From positions 1 through 21,380 of IMG/VR virus record IMGVR_UViG_3300031963_001056: a DNA stretch of 21,380 nucleotides; one strand, 5' to 3'. Made by a program: the position numbers and the translations under genes. The notes beneath the pieces were generated by a model, which was given only the letters and a program-made list of their open reading frames with translations, ran no database searches and was not told the origin of the DNA. Positions within the stretch are counted from its first letter, which is position 1. Each line of letters begins with the position of its first letter. Origin of the DNA: a virus. Of this stretch, positions 5,484-15,885 are shown in pieces.

Positions 5484-8400
5484 TGGCCATCTCCAATCAG
5501 CCGGTCGAAGAGCGACTCAGCAAGATCCTGCCGGAGCGGGTGGCGAGCTCCGAGCCTGACGAACCGATCACCGCGTTCGAGCCGGCCGAGACCGGCGACG
5601 ACAATGTCGTCCAGGTCGCTGGGCTTCGCGACATCATCGTTGGCGGCGCCAAACTGGTTGGCGAAGGGCGGGCCGCAAAGAAGGCCATCCAGGCGCCTGT
5701 CGAGCCCAACCCTACCGCTATCCCTCCCGGCACCACGGCAGCGCCTCCTGCGCCCGGTACGGCCCTGCCACAGGTATCTGCGCCGCAGCCGAAGGTCGGT
5801 GACCTGCCGCAGCAGCTGCAGAAGATCGAAGCAACGATTGAAACGGCGCCCGCTGCCGGCGCTCCTCCCGAGACGCTGATCAACCTGAACCGAATCGATG
5901 GGCCTGCAGACTTCAAGCAGACGGTCGAATCGCTCGCGCAGTCGAGCGGGCTGCAGGTTGAGCGCCTGACCTGGGAGCAGACGCTCGCCGAGGCCAAGCG
6001 CAAGGGCTTCGACGGCAATCTGCTGGGCGACCTGCAGATCATGAAGGAGCAGTACGGCAAGCTGCCAGTCGACATGGTGCGGCTGCGGCTTGCCAGCTAC
6101 CAGAATGCCAAGGGCTTCTACGACCTGGCGCGGCGCTCCTACCTGAACCCTGACGACGCTGACCTGCAGGCGCAGCTGCTCTATCGCTTGAGCCTGCAGA
6201 ACCAGATCAACGAGGCCTATGTGCTGTCGCGCACGCGGGCCGCGCAGGCCACTGCGGTCGGTCGCCTGCAGGTGACCGAGGAGCGTGCTGCCGACATCCT
6301 GGCTGACGCATCGGCCGCGAAGATCCCGGCGCCAGGCGATGCCGAGATGAAGCAGATGCTGGCCGATCCGAAGGTCGCGCCCGAGCTCAAGATCCTGGTC
6401 GAGAAGTTTGTCCAGCTGCAGGACGAAGGTGCCCGCGAGGGTCTGCTGAACAAGGCCAGCAAGGTGGGCCTGATTGCGGATCTGTGGGATCGCACCTGGA
6501 AGAATGGCCTGCTGTCAGGCATTGGTACGCATGTCGTCAACCTGACCAGCAACACCACGTTCCTGGCGAGCTCGGTGGCCACCAGGGCGCTGGCCGGTTT
6601 GGGCGGCTCTGCCAAGCGTGCGGTCGGCATGAGCGCGGAGGTCGAGCTCGGCGAGTCTGCGGCGATGGTGGCCGGCATGGTTCACGCGATCCGCGAGGGC
6701 TTCAGCCTGGCCGGCACGGCGCTCCGCACTGGCACGACCCGCGAGATGCGGGCCGGATCCGAGCTCATCAGCGACGCCGGCAAGAAGCTCGAGGGCCAGT
6801 ACCATATCTTCGATGCGAAGGACTACGGCATCGAGACAGAGGCGCTGGTCAAGGGCATCAATGCTTACGCCAACTTCGTCACGCTGCTGGGCGGTCGCCC
6901 GATCATGGCGATGGACGAGGTCTTCAAGACGATGGGCTACCGGGCCGAGCTCTATGCCCAGGCCTATCGTGCCGAGCAGCAGGCCAAGCGGGCGGCAATC
7001 GAAGGCGGCGCCACGCGAGAGCAGGCCGAGCAGCTGGGTCTCAAGCGCATGGGCGAGATCCTCTCAGACCCCCCTGCAGAGCTCGATGCCCTGGCGCAAG
7101 ACTTCAGCCACATGATCACGTTCAGCCGCAAGCTGACCGGCAGCGCAGCCCGCATTCAAGAGCTCGCGCAGGACAATTTGCTGGGCCGGATCGTGATGCC
7201 GTTCGTGAAGACGCCGATCTGGGTGGTGAGCGAGGGGATGCAGCACAGTGCCTTCGCCCCGATGTCCAAGCAGTTTCGCCAGGACTTCGCTGCAGGCGGG
7301 GCGCAGCGCGAGCTCGCGGTAGCCAAGTGGGGCATGGGCACGGCGATCATGATGGGCGCTGGCAGCTACGTCGCCGATGGCCGGATCACCGGCGGCGGGC
7401 CTGGCGACAACAACCTGCGCAAGGTCTACCTGGACAGCGGCTGGCGTCCCTACTCATTCGTCTTCCAAGAGGGCGAGTGGGATCCAGATTTTGTCAAATA
7501 TCTGCGCGGGATGCGGATCGATCCGTCTGTCGGAAAGGATGGCCGGTTGTACGTCCCCTTCCGTGGCATCGATCCGATTGGCGCACCGATGGCCATGATT
7601 GCTGATGCGGTCGAGTATGCCCGCTACGAAGATGATCAGGACAAGGTCGGCGAGATTCTTCTCGGCGCGGCCTGGGGTCTCTATGGCTACGTCGGCCAGA
7701 TGCCGTTCGTGCAGGGCATCAGTTCGATTGCCGGCGCATTCAGCGCCACGATCCCGAATCCGAAGCAGGCCTTCAAGAATGCGCTCGACGGACTGGCTGG
7801 AACTGCAGCTCAGTACACGGTTGAGGGTTCGCCGGTCGGGATCTTCTCGAGCGCCAGGGCAATGATCGAGCGCGGCTATGACCCGACGAAGCGCATGACC
7901 GCAGAGTCACCCAACGTGCCGACCGTTATCAAGGGATTCTACGAGGGGCTGAACCGCAGCATCGCCAGGACGCCGGTGCTCAGTGAGTCGCTGCCGCCGC
8001 AGTACGACTACCTTGGCGAGGTGATGAACGATGTCGATCCGGCCAATCCCTGGCTTGCGTCGATGACCGGCGTGCGTTACAGCACCACCAAGCAACGGCC
8101 GGCTGACAAGATCGTTATCAGCCTTGGGATGCCGATCAAGAAGCCGGACATGAACCTCGAGCTCGGCGGCGTGAACATCAAGCTGGAGGTCGAGGAATAC
8201 TCCTACATGATGAAGCAGCTGGGCCGGCTTACAACTGAAGCGCCAGTCATCAATCAGAAGACCGGCAAGACAGAGATGAAAAGCATCAACTTGCAACAAG
8301 CAATTGTTGAGCGTTACAACACGCCAGGGTTTACCGGTGACGAAAAAAACGTGCAGCAAAACAACATCCGCGACGTGTACAGCAGCTTCGTCAAGGCAGC

Positions 8401-11282: not shown

Positions 11283-11812
11283 AAGAGAACTTCGAGTCTG
11301 CGCTGGCGGCAGTGCTGCACCACGAGGGCGGCTACGTTGACCACCCGAAAGACCCAGGGGGCCGAACTAACAGGGGCGTGACGCAGCGCGTATGGGAAGA
11401 GTGGGTCAAGCGCCCGGTCGACGAGGCCGAGATGCGCAGCCTGACACCTGAGATGGTGGCGCCGCTCTACAAGCAGCGGTACTGGGATCGGGTGCGGGGT
11501 GACGACCTGCCGGCTGGTGTCGACTACGCGGTCTTCGACTGCGGGATCAACAGCGGCCCAGGCCGTGCGGTCAAGTTCCTGCAGCAGGTGGTCGGCGCCG
11601 ATGATGATGGGGTGATCGGGCCTGGCACGCTGCGGGCTGTCGCGGCCATGCCTGCTGATGAGATCGTGTCCAAATACCAAGCGAAGCGTTTGGAGTTTCT
11701 GCAGGCGCTGCCGACCTGGGAGACGTTCGGCAAGGGATGGGGCCGGCGGGTGACCGAGGTGGCCAGCGCCGCCGGCAAGATGACCGAAGGGTCAGGCAGC
11801 AGCCTGGCCTGA
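11279..11812 (+). CDS. Endolysin, GH108 family (ZliS-like N-acetylmuramidase), 177 aa
   Basis: A peptidoglycan-degrading lysis enzyme. The N-terminal glycosyl-hydrolase 108 domain shows HHEGGYVDHPKDPGGRTNRGVT, with the catalytic Glu at residue 16 in the EGGY motif and the family's DPGG.TN.G.T signature. The middle has YWDRVRGDDLPAGVDYAVFD and NSGPGRAVKFLQ. The C-terminal part (from about residue 104, GADDDGVIGPGTLRAV) is the predicted peptidoglycan-binding domain usually paired with GH108. No signal peptide or SAR anchor is visible, so release depends on the holin upstream. Start is the ATG in the ATGA overlap with the holin. The C-terminal 21 bases overlap the convergent recT-like gene. Confidence 0.92.
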   Translation: MKENFESALAAVLHHEGGYVDHPKDPGGRTNRGVTQRVWEEWVKRPVDEAEMRSLTPEMVAPLYKQRYWDRVRGDDLPAGVDYAVFDCGINSGPGRAVKFLQQVVGADDDGVIGPGTLRAVAAMPADEIVSKYQAKRLEFLQALPTWETFGKGWGRRVTEVASAAGKMTEGSGSSLA

Positions 11813-12895
11813 TTCTGCAGCCCGCTCCTCGGGCGTCAGGGTCGCGCCCAGCGCGGCCAGGCGCTGGTTGTACTTGGCCATGTGAATCGGCTTCAGGGCC
11901 AGCGGCAGGCGCCCCAGCTGACCTTCGTTGGCCTCGCGGAGCTCGCGGAGTTTGGTCATCCTGGTGCGAGCAGCAGCGCGGCCAGCCCTGGCGGTCTTGT
12001 CTGCCAGCGCCTCATAGGCTTCGTACCATCCTTCGATCGTAGGATACGACGCCAGCGGCTCTTCCCTGCCCGGCACCATCAGCGCGAAACCTGGGTGGCG
12101 AGGCGGGTTGCCTGACTCGGCGATGATGGCCTCGCGCTCGAGCTCCTCCTCGGTGATTGTCTCGACCTCGACGATCTCGATGCCGGCCTCCTGCGCCTGG
12201 TTGACCAGCTGCTCCACCGTGTCGGCCATCTGCTCGGCGATGACGATCGGGTCACTGGTCTGCACCACGGGCTCGACCTCAACGGGCGGTGGCGGCGCCG
12301 GCGGGGCGATGGCATCGAGCGGGTTGGCCGGCTTCGTGGGCGTGATGTCGCGCATCTTGCGGGGCTCATCGGCCGGGTAGTCCTGGGCCTCCTCGGCGGT
12401 GATCAAGCCCTTCAGCACGTCAGGGAAGGCGTCACGCAGGGCAAACCCACGGGCACGCATCTGTAACATTCTTTTGGGATACGACTGCCAGGGGCCGGCC
12501 TTGCCCCACAGCCCCGCTCTCTTGGCATCCTCGACACTGAACCTGGCAATCACCGGCATCCGGCCCTTGCGCCTGGCGATGCAGACGGCGCTGGGGTTCG
12601 GGGTGCCTTCGTTCTCGATGTGCTCATCGATGCCCTCGCAGAGCGGCGAGGCCTGCACCAGGGCGAGCGCAGCGTCACCGTACACGCTGGGCTTGCCGTT
12701 TATGACTGCGATGTTCTGGAGCGCCTGCATCGGGGCCAAGCCAATCTCATAGCCCCACTGCACGCAAACCAGGATGTCTGCGGGTTTTCCCTGGTACGCC
12801 TTGGGCACCATCGAGCTCGATGCCAGGTGCTCGCTAAACTGCATGGCTTCGGTCAGGGTTGCGGGTGCGAACCCGCGATGGGTAGTCAGTGTCAT
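11792..12895 (-). CDS. recT: RecT-family single-strand annealing protein, 367 aa
   Basis: Binds ssDNA left by an exonuclease and anneals it to a homologous strand. Family features in order: VQWGYEIGLAPMQALQNI (45-62), NGKPSVYGDAALALV (66-80), a W-Q-YPKRML segment (136-144), MRARGFALRDAFPDVLKG (146-163) and a TAEEAQDYP end (166-173). Beyond about 190 is a Pro-rich linker, an acidic stretch and an extra domain rich in Arg/Leu helices, making the protein longer than typical RecT (about 270-300 aa). The start ATG at 12895 is preferred over an upstream ATG-type start because it forms an ATGA overlap with the exonuclease stop and has GAAGGA upstream. It is the last gene of the leftward operon. Confidence 0.88.
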   Translation of the reverse strand: MTLTTHRGFAPATLTEAMQFSEHLASSSMVPKAYQGKPADILVCVQWGYEIGLAPMQALQNIAVINGKPSVYGDAALALVQASPLCEGIDEHIENEGTPNPSAVCIARRKGRMPVIARFSVEDAKRAGLWGKAGPWQSYPKRMLQMRARGFALRDAFPDVLKGLITAEEAQDYPADEPRKMRDITPTKPANPLDAIAPPAPPPPVEVEPVVQTSDPIVIAEQMADTVEQLVNQAQEAGIEIVEVETITEEELEREAIIAESGNPPRHPGFALMVPGREEPLASYPTIEGWYEAYEALADKTARAGRAAARTRMTKLRELREANEGQLGRLPLALKPIHMAKYNQRLAALGATLTPEERAAESGQAAA

Positions 12896-13845
12896 TTCAT
12901 TTCCTTCACTGATAAAGTGGATTGTCGAACGCTGTACGCAGCCTTTGCGGGGACGATTTTTTGCGGCGTCGCAGCGTAGTTGCGCATCGGCCACTTGATC
13001 TCGAGGTTGCCGGCGGTGCCACGGTTGGCAGTGCGCAGCATCGTCTTCAATTTTTTCTCGGCCTCTTCCTGGTCAGCGGATGCCTTGGTGATCGTCTTCT
13101 TGGCCTCGAGAATTTCTCGCGCTAGGCGCTCGCCCTCGCTGCCCAAATCGATCGATGCTTCATCGGCCTGCGGGAACATGCGATCGGCATCCTTGCTGTT
13201 GATCGGCTGATACCAGTCGATGATCTGCTTCTTCTTCCAGACATCCAGCCGGCGCTGGAAGTCGGTGGCCAGGCCATAGATCCGGTCGACGAGCGGCTGG
13301 TGCGGAGCGAAAAGGAATAGCCGGAGCTCGGTGCCCTGATAGAGCACGGCGATGCAGCCCCAGCGGGCCTGGATGATGTCCATCTGGGCCTGCAGCTGGA
13401 TCGGGCCACGGTACAGGGCTGGCGTGTCTTCCGGGCTGACGCTGGTCAGCTTGGCCTCGAGCACGCCTGTGCCTACAAGTTCGATCTGATCCTGGCCGAT
13501 GACGTAGATCCCGGCGTCCGGGTCAGTGGTGATGATCTGCCCGCCACCGTCAGCGGTGCCGTCCAGGCTGCAGCAGAGCGGCACGTCGGGGTGATAGCGG
13601 GCAGCAGGGTGATCGGTGACCAGGTCGATCAGGCGCAGCCGGCGTGCGGCCTCGCGCAGGATAATGGGCTCGAGCTCATTGCCCCAGGCCATCGCTTCGT
13701 TGCCATCCGATCGGACGTTCTCGCCCTGCATGGCGCCGATGCTGTACTGGAGCTCATCGTTCGGCGAACGGTACTTCGACAGCCCCATGAGCGCCGGCAA
13801 TCTGCTGGCGCTGAGCATGTCATCGGGGGTTACTTTGCTGACCAT
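12892..13845 (-). CDS. YqaJ-type viral exonuclease (RecE/lambda-exo role), 317 aa
   Basis: A 5'-3' double-strand exonuclease that makes the ssDNA tails used by the RecT protein encoded next. PD-(D/E)XK motifs are visible: SASRLPALMG near the N-terminus (12-21), WGNELEP (54-60), CSLDGTAD with the catalytic Asp at about 95, GVLEAKLTS with Glu130 and Lys132, and PIQLQAQMDI (148-157) for the QxQ helix. The C-terminal 100 residues contain a coiled coil with AKKTITKASADQEEAEKKL. The ATG at 13845 is chosen because AGGAGA lies 6 bases before it and the conserved region starts soon after; the frame is open upstream but without support. Its stop overlaps the recT start (ATGA), so the pair is made together. 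Confidence 0.88.
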   Translation of the reverse strand: MVSKVTPDDMLSASRLPALMGLSKYRSPNDELQYSIGAMQGENVRSDGNEAMAWGNELEPIILREAARRLRLIDLVTDHPAARYHPDVPLCCSLDGTADGGGQIITTDPDAGIYVIGQDQIELVGTGVLEAKLTSVSPEDTPALYRGPIQLQAQMDIIQARWGCIAVLYQGTELRLFLFAPHQPLVDRIYGLATDFQRRLDVWKKKQIIDWYQPINSKDADRMFPQADEASIDLGSEGERLAREILEAKKTITKASADQEEAEKKLKTMLRTANRGTAGNLEIKWPMRNYAATPQKIVPAKAAYSVRQSTLSVKEMK

Positions 13846-14137
13846 CGTGCGTCTCCTGTAAAGCATAGACCCGCACGACTCGAGCGTGCGCGGCCGGGTG
13901 ATGCGCCTCGGTGTATCCGATGGCGCGAAACTGGCGGGTGCGGAAGACCGCGCCCAGCAGGCTAGGGTGAATGCCAGGCGGCAGGGTGACGGCCTCGCGT
14001 ACTTCATTGATACTGACGAAACCGTGCTGGCGGGCGAACACGATGGCCGCTGCCCGGCACCGCTCGAGCAGGTCAGCGTGCTGCACCTCGAACAGGCCCA
14101 TCTGCTGCTCTTTGATTGTCCGACCGTCGAGGCTCAT
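13820..14137 (-). CDS. Small unknown phage protein with GAVFR motif, 105 aa
   Basis: The start ATG at 14137 overlaps the stop of the upstream 65-aa gene (ATGA), and the C-terminus overlaps the exonuclease start by 26 bases, so it is part of the tightly coupled recombination operon. The sequence has a helical N-terminus (EQQMGLFEVQHADLLERCRA), a predicted winged-helix-like core (FVSINEVREAV, LPPGIHPSLLGAVFRT) and a TEAHHPAAHARVVRVYAL end. I have an impression of this pattern in phage proteins near recombination genes, but no named family is certain. A DNA-binding accessory role is possible; nothing catalytic is visible. Confidence 0.65.
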   Translation of the reverse strand: MSLDGRTIKEQQMGLFEVQHADLLERCRAAAIVFARQHGFVSINEVREAVTLPPGIHPSLLGAVFRTRQFRAIGYTEAHHPAAHARVVRVYALQETHDGQQSNPR

Positions 14138-14331
14138 AGCATGAGCCCCAGCAGCATGAGTCCAACTATGCACAACACCGCGATGAACCCGTCAGACAGA
14201 CGACGCTTGCCGCCAGGCTTGCGCAGCAGGTAGTGCTGGATCTCAAGCTCCTCCCAGGTTGGTTTGTGCCGGAGCTCCGGCCGGTAGCCGGTGCCAATCG
14301 GCACCTTAGACAGTGGTTTTGACTCACGCAT
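14134..14331 (-). CDS. Small tail-anchored membrane protein, 65 aa
   Basis: Begins at ATG 14331, eight bases inside the end of the serine recombinase gene, with GGAGG about 6 bases upstream. The N-terminal 45 residues are polar and basic, with WEELEIQHYLLRKPGGKRRL, and the last 18 residues form one transmembrane helix (GFIAVLCIVGLMLLGLML) that ends the protein. It is therefore C-tail-anchored with its body in the cytoplasm. The stop overlaps the next start as ATGA. No family is recognised; a membrane protein in a recombination operon could affect host functions such as exclusion or membrane-linked replication, but this is guesswork. Confidence 0.6.
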   Translation of the reverse strand: MRESKPLSKVPIGTGYRPELRHKPTWEELEIQHYLLRKPGGKRRLSDGFIAVLCIVGLMLLGLML

Positions 14332-14971
14332 TGCAGGCCTCCAGAAGGTTGCGAACTTGCGACGGCGCCCAATTGCTGCCGCCGCGGGGGGTTGCGATAC
14401 CGCGTGCTTGCAGGGCTGCAGCGATCTCGCGAAGGGTGGTGCAGCCGGCACGCTTGATGTCGGCCACGATCGGCGCCAGGCGCGTAGCGTAGGCACTGGC
14501 ACGGGCCTGGATGGCAGCGATACCGGCGGCGCTGCCGCGCTCGGGGGTCGGGCACCCGAGCTTCACGCCACGGGCCTTCGCGGCCTGCAGGGCGGCTTTT
14601 GTGCGGCGGCTGATCTCCTCGCGCTCATGCTGGGCGACCACTGCGCGGATGCCGAACTCAAGGGTGCCGGCGTGCGGCATGTCGGCAGCGACGATCTGCA
14701 CGCCAGAGTCGCGGAGCGTCAGAAGGAACGCAGCCTGGCGGGACAGGCGATCGATCTTGGCGATCAGCAGGGCGGCGCCGGTACGCTTGCACATAGCGAT
14801 GGCTGCGGCCAGTTGGGGCCGGTCATCGTTCTTGCCGGACTCGATCTCGGTGAACGAGTGGGTGATGTCTGCAGCGTACTGCTTGACCGCAGCCTGCTGG
14901 GCCTCGAGGCCGAGGCCGGACTGGCCCTGGCGTTCGGTGGAGACGCGGAAATAGGCGACGAACTTGGTCAT
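14324..14971 (-). CDS. Small serine recombinase (resolvase/invertase family), 215 aa
   Basis: Cuts and rejoins DNA through a serine. The catalytic N-terminal domain has YFRVSTERQG with Arg9 and nucleophile Ser11, DDRPQLAAAI with Arg51, and AKIDRLSR (71-78) with the conserved Asp74, Arg75 and Arg78. The long E-helix region HEREEISRRTKAALQAAKARG (115-135) follows. The C-terminal 40 residues (TTLREIAAALQARGIATPR then WAPSQVRNLL) form a HTH typical of this class. The length fits the small resolvase/invertase class and not the large serine integrases. No crossover site pair could be identified. ATG at 14971 has AAGAGGG 7 bases upstream. It may resolve concatemers, invert a segment, or act as an integrase; sequence alone does not say. 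Confidence 0.85.
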   Translation of the reverse strand: MTKFVAYFRVSTERQGQSGLGLEAQQAAVKQYAADITHSFTEIESGKNDDRPQLAAAIAMCKRTGAALLIAKIDRLSRQAAFLLTLRDSGVQIVAADMPHAGTLEFGIRAVVAQHEREEISRRTKAALQAAKARGVKLGCPTPERGSAAGIAAIQARASAYATRLAPIVADIKRAGCTTLREIAAALQARGIATPRGGSNWAPSQVRNLLEACNA

Positions 14972-15117: not shown

Positions 15118-15504
15118 TCAGGCCTTTGACGCTTTGAGCACTGCGGTGTCGACCCAGTCGGCAATCTGAACTGGCACGCGACCGTTTTTTTGCTGACGGA
15201 ACTGATACAGGTTCGCCAGATGGCAGAAGGTATTGCCGTCGCGCTGTGCGCCGGTGCCAATAACTTCCCAGGCGTGACCCATGTGAACGATTTTCTTGCC
15301 GATGAAGCTCTCGGCAATCGCTTTGTCGAGGATCTCTTGCAGGCTTTCAATCGTATGGCTGCGGTCGAGCCATACGCTTCTCTGGCTGACTCCGTTTGCA
15401 CGGGTATGCACGACGATGACATTGCTGCTATTCCGACCTGGGATCACACTGAACCCTGGGATCGTCTTGATGGCATCGATGAGTTGCTGCTCTTGCTTGG
15501 TCAT
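15118..15504 (-). CDS. Unknown protein, first gene of leftward operon, 128 aa
   Basis: First gene behind the leftward promoter, with GAGGAG 7 bases before its ATG and a leader of about 50 bases. The N-terminal half (LIDAIKTIPGFSVIPGRNSS, then VIVVHTRANGVSQRSVWLDR) looks like an alpha-beta-beta fold with a SHTIESLQEILDKAI helix. The C-terminal half is mixed alpha/beta with GKKIVHMGHAWEVIGTGAQR and WVDTAVLKASK. I recognise no family. A gene in first position of an early phage operon is often a host-takeover or regulatory protein, which is only a general expectation here. Confidence 0.6.
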   Translation of the reverse strand: MTKQEQQLIDAIKTIPGFSVIPGRNSSNVIVVHTRANGVSQRSVWLDRSHTIESLQEILDKAIAESFIGKKIVHMGHAWEVIGTGAQRDGNTFCHLANLYQFRQQKNGRVPVQIADWVDTAVLKASKA

Positions 15505-15530
15505 GTTCAGACTCCTCTTTCCGGGTGGTC

Positions 15531-15548
15531 TGCGATATCACTGCGATA
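15531..15548. repeat. Direct repeat TGCGATA x2, 11-bp period
   Basis: TGCGATA occurs at 15531-15537 and again at 15542-15548, exactly one helical turn apart. The repeats lie between the leftward promoter and the first gene of the leftward operon. A protein binding both copies would sit on one face of the helix just downstream of the start of transcription, so an operator role is plausible. Confidence 0.5.
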
Positions 15549-15560
15549 CCGCTGAGACAG

Positions 15561-15590
15561 ATACTCGCATGGTTTTTTTCGACTTGTCAA
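15561..15590 (-). promoter_or_regulatory. Leftward sigma70-type promoter
   Basis: Reading the minus strand, a perfect TTGACA -35 box lies at 15590-15585, followed by an 18-base spacer and GAGTAT at 15566-15561 as the -10 box (three of six consensus bases). Transcription would begin near 15554 and run into the recombination operon. A GATAC half-site at 15560-15564 overlaps the -10 box. The strong -35 in an AT-richer intergenic region with divergent genes supports it; the weak -10 limits certainty. Confidence 0.5.
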
Positions 15591-15630
15591 ATAGCCAAAC
15601 GCCAGTGGCAAGTAAGGCAAACCCTAATCC

Positions 15631-15647
15631 GTTGCATTTGAGGCAAC
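15631..15647. repeat. Inverted repeat GTTGC-N7-GCAAC
   Basis: Perfect 5-bp arms at 15631-15635 and 15643-15647, separated by ATTTGAG. It lies in the divergent control region upstream of the RHH gene, close to TTG-type -35-like bases. It may be an operator or simply a chance palindrome. Confidence 0.35.
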
Positions 15648-15655
15648 ACTCGGGG

Positions 15656-15683
15656 TGTATCATCGCGGCATCACATTGATACA
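15656..15683. promoter_or_regulatory. Candidate operator TGTATCA-N14-TGATACA
   Basis: A perfect 7-bp inverted repeat: TGTATCA at 15656-15662 and TGATACA at 15677-15683, with arm centres 21 bases (two helical turns) apart. It lies just before the RBS of the ribbon-helix-helix gene at 15694 and its inner part shares the GATAC core found at 15545-15549 and 15560-15564. RHH repressors bind paired short half-sites on one DNA face and commonly control their own genes, so this is a good candidate autoregulatory operator. Confidence 0.55.
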
Positions 15684-15693
15684 AGGAAGGCCG

Positions 15694-15885
15694 ATGGAGA
15701 TCGAGCCCTACAAGCCCTTCATGGTCAGGCTGAAGCCCAGCACCAGGGAGATGCTGGACAAGGCCGCCGAGGATCAGCGCCGCAGTCGGGCCAGCATCAT
15801 CGATGAGCTCATACGCACGCATCTGTCGAGCCGCTACAGCGACGTGCATCAGCGCATTGAGCGGTTGCTGGCTGGCCGGCAATGA
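15694..15885 (+). CDS. Ribbon-helix-helix (Arc/CopG-type) regulator, 63 aa
   Basis: A small DNA-binding protein. The N-terminus holds the beta strand (KPFMVRLKPSTREML, about 6-20) that inserts in the major groove, then helix A (REMLDKAAEDQRR) and, after SRASI, helix B (IIDELIRTHL), the classic Arc/CopG pattern. The C-terminal 20 residues form an extra helix (VHQRIERLLAG) that may aid dimerisation. The ATG at 15694 is chosen because AAGGAAGG ends 3 bases before it; an upstream GTG-type start at 15655 would place the start inside the putative operator. It is the first rightward early gene, divergent from the recombination operon, a normal place for a control protein. The stop overlaps the next ATG (ATGA). 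Confidence 0.85.
   Translation: MEIEPYKPFMVRLKPSTREMLDKAAEDQRRSRASIIDELIRTHLSSRYSDVHQRIERLLAGRQ

Follow-up and report, generated by a model that had tools for sequence, protein, structure and literature searches.

The window, i.e., the whole stretch of DNA analyzed here, is a 21,380-bp IMG/VR virus fragment of an uncultured, freshwater-type phage belonging to a widespread uncultured podovirus group; genome-wide statements made below cover this fragment and its relatives. It harbors two back-to-back operons separated by a divergent intergenic control region of 189 bp. The rightward operon encodes, in this order, a 63-aa RHH protein, a 100-aa protein, RusA, a replication initiator, the small terminase, and the large terminase. 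The annotated genes on both sides of the control region are as follows:

15694..15885, plus strand: RHH gene encoding the 63-aa Arc-like protein (PHROG 3431 match), first gene of the rightward operon
15118..15504, minus strand: first leftward gene, 128 aa, no assigned function, variable among relatives
14324-14971, leftward operon: small serine recombinase, after the 128-aa gene
12892-14007, leftward operon: YqaJ nuclease
11792-12994, leftward operon: RecT-like protein

Nearly all relatives encode, in their divergent operon, a small serine recombinase whose C-terminal domain is largely or entirely missing; the one in the window is carried by an apparently non-integrating phage.

The 63-aa protein matches PHROG 3431, annotated as "Arc-like repressor" (E=6.7e-6). 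The Pfam search of this protein itself returned no match, and its family members gave weak Pfam matches to RHH_1 (12 of 17, best 7.3e-5) and Arc (10 of 17, best 0.0015), so by sequence the protein falls into the Arc/RHH family, though the matches are weak. The AlphaFold prediction, made for a single chain only, showed one long helix and no RHH fold (pLDDT 79, pTM 0.40). When aligned on the RS turn, R12, the equivalent of R13 of Arc, is invariant, and the residues at positions 8 and 10 are not those of Arc (P/M), whose base-contacting strand residues are 9, 11, and 13. Relatives of the RHH protein are present in viral contigs, but none was confirmed among the genome contigs of the 84,980 genomes searched. 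Relatives of TerL were encountered in genome contigs only on short MAG contigs, and neither RHH nor TerL pointed to a convincing host; a blastn search of a phage database with the divergent region yielded no match.

The control region itself comprises the following elements, where PL and PR stand for the leftward and rightward promoters and OL and OR for the putative left and right operators:

15561..15590, minus strand: PL, with TTGACA (15590-15585), an 18-bp spacer, TGC, and GAGTAT (15566-15561); predicted start at about 15554
15532..15552: OL, a 21-bp dyad GCGATATC-ACTGC-GATACCGC, putative left operator, centered at +13 of the predicted leftward start
15509..15531, minus strand: HP2, a leader RNA hairpin enclosing the leftward-operon Shine-Dalgarno sequence AGGAG, supported by covariation
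15612..15627: mid element GTAAGG-CAAA-CCCTAA, a degenerate copy of a conserved CTAGGG-N4/5-CCCTAA dyad
15658..15663, plus strand: PR -10 element TATCAT, conserved as TATSAT
15665..15685: OR, a 21-bp putative operator GCGGCATC-ACATT-GATACAAG, adjoining the RHH Shine-Dalgarno sequence
15657..15661, minus strand: extra half-site GTATC (GATAC on the minus strand), overlapping the rightward -10 TATCAT
15656..15683: perfect dyad TGTATCA-N14-TGATACA, the outer arms of a three-half-site array at OR

PL is conserved in the relatives and scored 9.3 in our own promoter scoring; a stricter tool-based scan found no promoter. OL spans approximately +3 to +23 of the leftward promoter. For PR, no good or clear -35 match was seen. 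The core of OR, GCATC-N5-GATAC (15668-15682), belongs to an element which begins just downstream of the -10 and is centered at about -19 from the RHH start codon. The extra half-site lies one helical turn upstream of the left half-site of OR, and in the A1 phages a second, overlapping matrix match (see below) is found 11 bp upstream. Hence the RHH gene is preceded by an arrangement of the Arc type, with OR and the extra half-site on the PR -10 lying over the gene's own promoter.

In the PFLTR clade (L035, L036, L057, L066, L070), the RHH start codon follows the -10 (TATACT or TACACT) at a distance of 7-8 nt and lacks a visible Shine-Dalgarno sequence; for these two reasons, the repressor mRNA of this clade is probably leaderless.

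Conservation was assessed on 156 loci with an RHH match, reduced to 54 representatives with distinct upstream regions; two of these were dropped from the counts for an unusable upstream region (n=52). The representatives are not independent of one another, and the start sites are predicted. When inverted repeats were counted by spacer length, with 8-bp arms and one mismatch allowed, spacer-5 dyads emerged as the main outlier geometry of the divergent region (28/52 vs. 3.5 in shuffles); with perfect 7-bp arms, the counts were 14 and 0.5, respectively. Judging from this comparison, the conserved unit is a 21-bp dyad, RTWKC-N5-GMWAY, which recurs in phages with the same RHH family. As a loose pattern searched over whole records, RTWKC-N5-GMWAY was rejected for insufficient specificity. 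The left-end spacer-5 dyad occurs in at least 11 sequence forms in which changes in one arm are compensated in the other; the arm pairs include GCGATATC/GATAYCGC, GCGCTATC/GATAGCGC, GGTATTGC/GCAACACC, CGTACTGC/GCAGTACG, GGTGTATC/GATACACC, GGTATAGC/GCTACACC, ACGATATC/GATATCGT, and ACGATGTC/GACATCGT, plus others. While the arms vary in this compensated manner, OL keeps its center at +13 (±1) relative to the predicted PL start; this position holds in over 20 phages across lineages.

A symmetrised matrix was built solely from the left sites, leaving out the tested phage's own group. In the window, it ranked OL first (18.7) and OR, which was not in the training set, second (13.4), the next match scoring 11.1. 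The best match fell inside the short divergent region, which makes up a few percent of most loci, in 36/52 loci. On the PR side, the best match was centered 17-23 bp before the RHH start codon in 19 of 29 lineages vs. 3.3 expected (Fisher p ~4e-23 over the 29 lineages), and the enrichment persisted in the 16 clades never used for training (p 1.3e-13). Some of the PR sites, e.g., ATATC-GGAGC-GATAT, are situated upstream of a -10 which is itself 7-8 nt before the ATG; since they lie upstream of the predicted transcript, such sites are not expected in the RNA and would act as DNA. The OR matches were weak in the KVFTLRL and PLVVRL clades (p 0.05-0.87), and in the L013-L017 group the OL half-sites are TTGC and the OR half-sites mainly GATAC or GACAT. 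In a distant isolate, the Methylophilales phage MEP301, the promoter of the RHH operon carries GTATC-TATGA-GATAT, which the matrix ranked only fourth in that genome.

Two further occurrences were recorded. In a distant marine relative (L157, ~6050-6255), the RHH gene is barely detectable (E=0.0033) and has ATATC-ATGTA-GATAT upstream. L036, L046, and L047 share another conserved site resembling the operator, ATATCGCTCAGATAT, which scores 12.8; in these three loci it lies ~5.4 kb downstream of the RHH gene and possibly controls a later operon.

Since the matrix of left sites finds the right-hand promoter sites and ranks OL and OR at the top of the window, we conclude that the 21-bp motif represents a putative DNA operator present in a left and a right copy. 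The gene family, the conserved positions, the geometry, the motif common to both promoters, and the leader RNA structure are supported directly. The most plausible explanation, in which we have fairly high confidence, is that an Arc-like RHH repressor encoded by the phage itself operates the divergent promoters as a switch, repressing its own synthesis as well as the recombination operon; the identity of the binder, its repressive effect, and the timing are inferred. Counting against this explanation are the weak family matches, the single-helix AlphaFold model, the weak OR matches of the KVFTLRL and PLVVRL clades, the unlike OL and OR half-sites of the L013-L017 group, the fourth rank of the MEP301 site, and PR having no clear -35. 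As in Arc, each 21-bp operator would accommodate a pair of RHH dimers, each on its own half-site. Binding to OR, which lies over the PR start with the third half-site on the -10, would turn off the RHH gene (autoregulation) and also shut off the operon of RusA, replication, and terminase genes behind it, whereas binding to OL would silence the serine recombinase, YqaJ nuclease, and RecT genes of the recombination operon. With PL strong and PR weak, expression would start as an early burst, to be damped later by RHH.

At the same time, OL is transcribed, and in the leftward RNA it can form a hairpin (HP1) of 8 bp with a 5-nt loop, beginning at +2/+3 and adjoined by HP2. Covariation was computed on 23 distinct leaders. 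In HP1 and HP2 together, 98.8% of the cells are paired and nine pairs show double changes; with the partner slid, the paired fraction falls to 25-44%. For HP1 alone, 98.9% of the cells are paired and 7/8 pairs have changes on both sides; at the one asymmetric position, the leftward RNA has G.U in every case and never the reverse (12 cells, 3 lineages), and all wobble cells of HP1 are G.U in this RNA. In HP2, 98.6% of the cells are paired and two pairs are double-changed (AGAC/GUCU, GAAC/GUUC, CAAC/GUUG). Compensatory pairing on the transcribed strand is thus seen for both hairpins; an Rfam search with them returned no relevant match. In the PFL-type clades (L025, L028, L035, L036, L066, L119), a different covarying leader hairpin, GNNC-AGAURAN-GNNC with the conserved loop AGAURA, is located directly before the leftward Shine-Dalgarno sequence.

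These findings are what recommends the reading of OL solely as an RNA element, i.e., a 5'-terminal hairpin for mRNA protection or, with HP2, for translation control, the RHH protein acting at OR only. It is in line with the retention of perfect HP1 pairing in L021, though the operator score is lost there (-2.0), with the leader hairpins unrelated to HP1/HP2 in L072 and the PFLTR-type clades, and with the known ability of 5' hairpins to stabilise mRNA by hindering RppH (PMC3997798). Nevertheless, we deem it unlikely: the OL sequences find non-transcribed PR sites in the untrained clades, which makes the motif a DNA vocabulary shared by the two promoters, and the dyad extends into the spacer as RC-N-GY, an extension superfluous for an RNA loop. 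The motif common to PR therefore disfavors a purely RNA role of OL, though the RNA structure is real.

Still, the left copy probably has an additional role at the RNA level. Tentatively, and with less assurance than for the promoter switch, OL can be regarded as a dual-purpose element combining an Arc-type DNA operator with a 5'-terminal RNA hairpin which, together with HP2, would set the stability or translation of the early mRNA. If so, selection on OL would affect both the DNA half-sites and the RNA pairing, including the G.U pairs tolerated only by the leftward RNA, and the locus would be a candidate case of one sequence selected as a DNA operator and as an RNA hairpin.

Other factors may operate in the region as well. 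The CTAGGG-N4/5-CCCTAA dyad, represented in the window by the mid element, reached at least 10/12 matches in 25/52 representatives and in none of the shuffles. It is positioned 60-85 bp upstream of the RHH start (L005, L016, L036, L065, and others), and its distances to the PL -10 (38.5, 49-49.5, or 57-61 bp) correspond to steps of one helical turn; a claim of phasing to OR was rejected, the spacing being too variable. By its sequence and placement, the dyad looks like an activator site. In the KVFTLRL clade (L032, L033, L034, L037, L038), this dyad is replaced by a box resembling FNR/ANR sites, which reads TTGATCTTGGTCAA or TTGACCTAGATCAA; it lies ~67 bp ahead of the RHH start, at ~-61 of the rightward promoter, and suggests a host oxygen-responsive control in this clade. 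Both elements lend some credence to the notion that OL and OR bind another regulator, a host or other phage protein, next to which the RHH gene merely happens to reside. We consider this very improbable, since the Arc-type geometry is found beside an Arc-like gene in many lineages, the RHH gene being the invariable companion and the small first leftward genes changing from phage to phage, and since MEP301, a phage of marine OM43 hosts, has kept the RHH gene together with a site at the promoter of its operon.

The sequence-only reading of the window, which started from clustered GATAC words, had placed these correctly; they lie at 15545 (+), 15560 (+), 15657 (-), and 15678 (+), with GATAT at 15534, and the perfect dyad it pointed out consists of TGTATCA (15656-15662) and TGATACA (15677-15683). 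The excess it reported is real in that four copies occur on both strands of 189 bp vs. 0.27 in shuffles (0/3000 reach four), but the word was chosen post hoc. Some 5-mer attains at least four copies in 24% of the shuffled copies of the intergenic region, 13% of all shuffled copies contain one or more perfect 7-bp dyads with a spacer of 0-20, and GATAC is ~1.8-fold over-represented over the whole window (32 vs. 17.7 expected). For these reasons, the GATAC/dyad pattern taken alone is weak evidence, and the strength comes from the comparative data. The idea that GATAC clusters by chance in a short, AT-richer stretch between genes, with which these shuffle frequencies would agree, is refuted for OL and OR by conservation over dozens of loci far beyond the shuffles, has a negligible probability as a general explanation, and stands only for GATAC 15560. 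That copy overlaps the leftward -10, as had been noticed, but was rejected as an operator half-site: it is part of the minus-strand GAGTAT and is not conserved, relatives having GAATAC or attata.

The 11-bp TGCGATA repeat does exist (15531 and 15542), but it is a by-product of the OL dyad rather than a separate signal, because GATATC equals its own reverse complement. The 28-bp TGTATCA/TGATACA dyad, earlier taken for the operator unit, did not hold up in this capacity: spacer-14 dyads with perfect arms occur in 3/52 representatives vs. 0.65 expected and are not conserved. Of the three half-sites in the OR array, the outer two make up this dyad. The NikR operator has the geometry GTATGA-N16-TCATAC; a NikR-like arrangement was dropped, since the N14/N16 dyad is not conserved and the protein is without an extra domain. 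Overall, the proposal of an RHH-operated switch on both operons is partly upheld, with good comparative support in that a site of Arc geometry is found at both promoters in many lineages, but with a different operator unit, without one of the GATAC copies, and with a left site that behaves as an RNA hairpin as well.

A lysogeny switch is not supported, the genome searches with RHH and TerL having shown no integrated member of the phage group; a role in timing or feedback is more likely. The analysis gives this podovirus group, for whose nearest isolate no repressor was published, a candidate regulator, two putative operators, and a circuit that can be tested. The loci also provide a natural experiment on the DNA specificity of RHH proteins, with dozens of operator variants and the RHH sequences that go with them.

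The nearest isolate is MEP301 (MW452941), its TerL being 74.8% identical. It displays the same gene order, with the RHH relative gp52 upstream of RusA; the difference is that gp52 is annotated as "hypothetical" and preceded by an extra gene. The published description of MEP301 mentions no repressor (PMC8024684). RelB and other RHH antitoxins are autorepressors whose dimers bind neighboring repeats on the same face of the DNA, silencing the promoter they are expressed from (PMC2812701). The phage system resembles them in the presumed binding of RHH dimers to repeats and repression of the own promoter but has no recognisable toxin partner beside the gene, and its operator is Arc-like, not four contiguous hexads.

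The closest parallel in layout is Oarc of P22 (NC_002371, annotated in the immI region), an operator of 21 bp with symmetric positions 5-8 and 14-17 and a 5-bp center; the two half-sites, the 21-bp length, and the 5-bp center are shared by OL and OR of the window and by those of its relatives. Both P22 Arc and the phage studied here feature a small RHH repressor, divergent promoters under joint control, and negative autoregulation (all three putative in the present case). In P22, arc-ant and mnt are controlled, Oarc lies inside the promoter, and there is a separate Mnt operator; the half-site is TAGA in P22 and RTWKC here. Unlike in P22, one RHH family apparently serves two operators in these phages, one of them situated in a transcribed leader.
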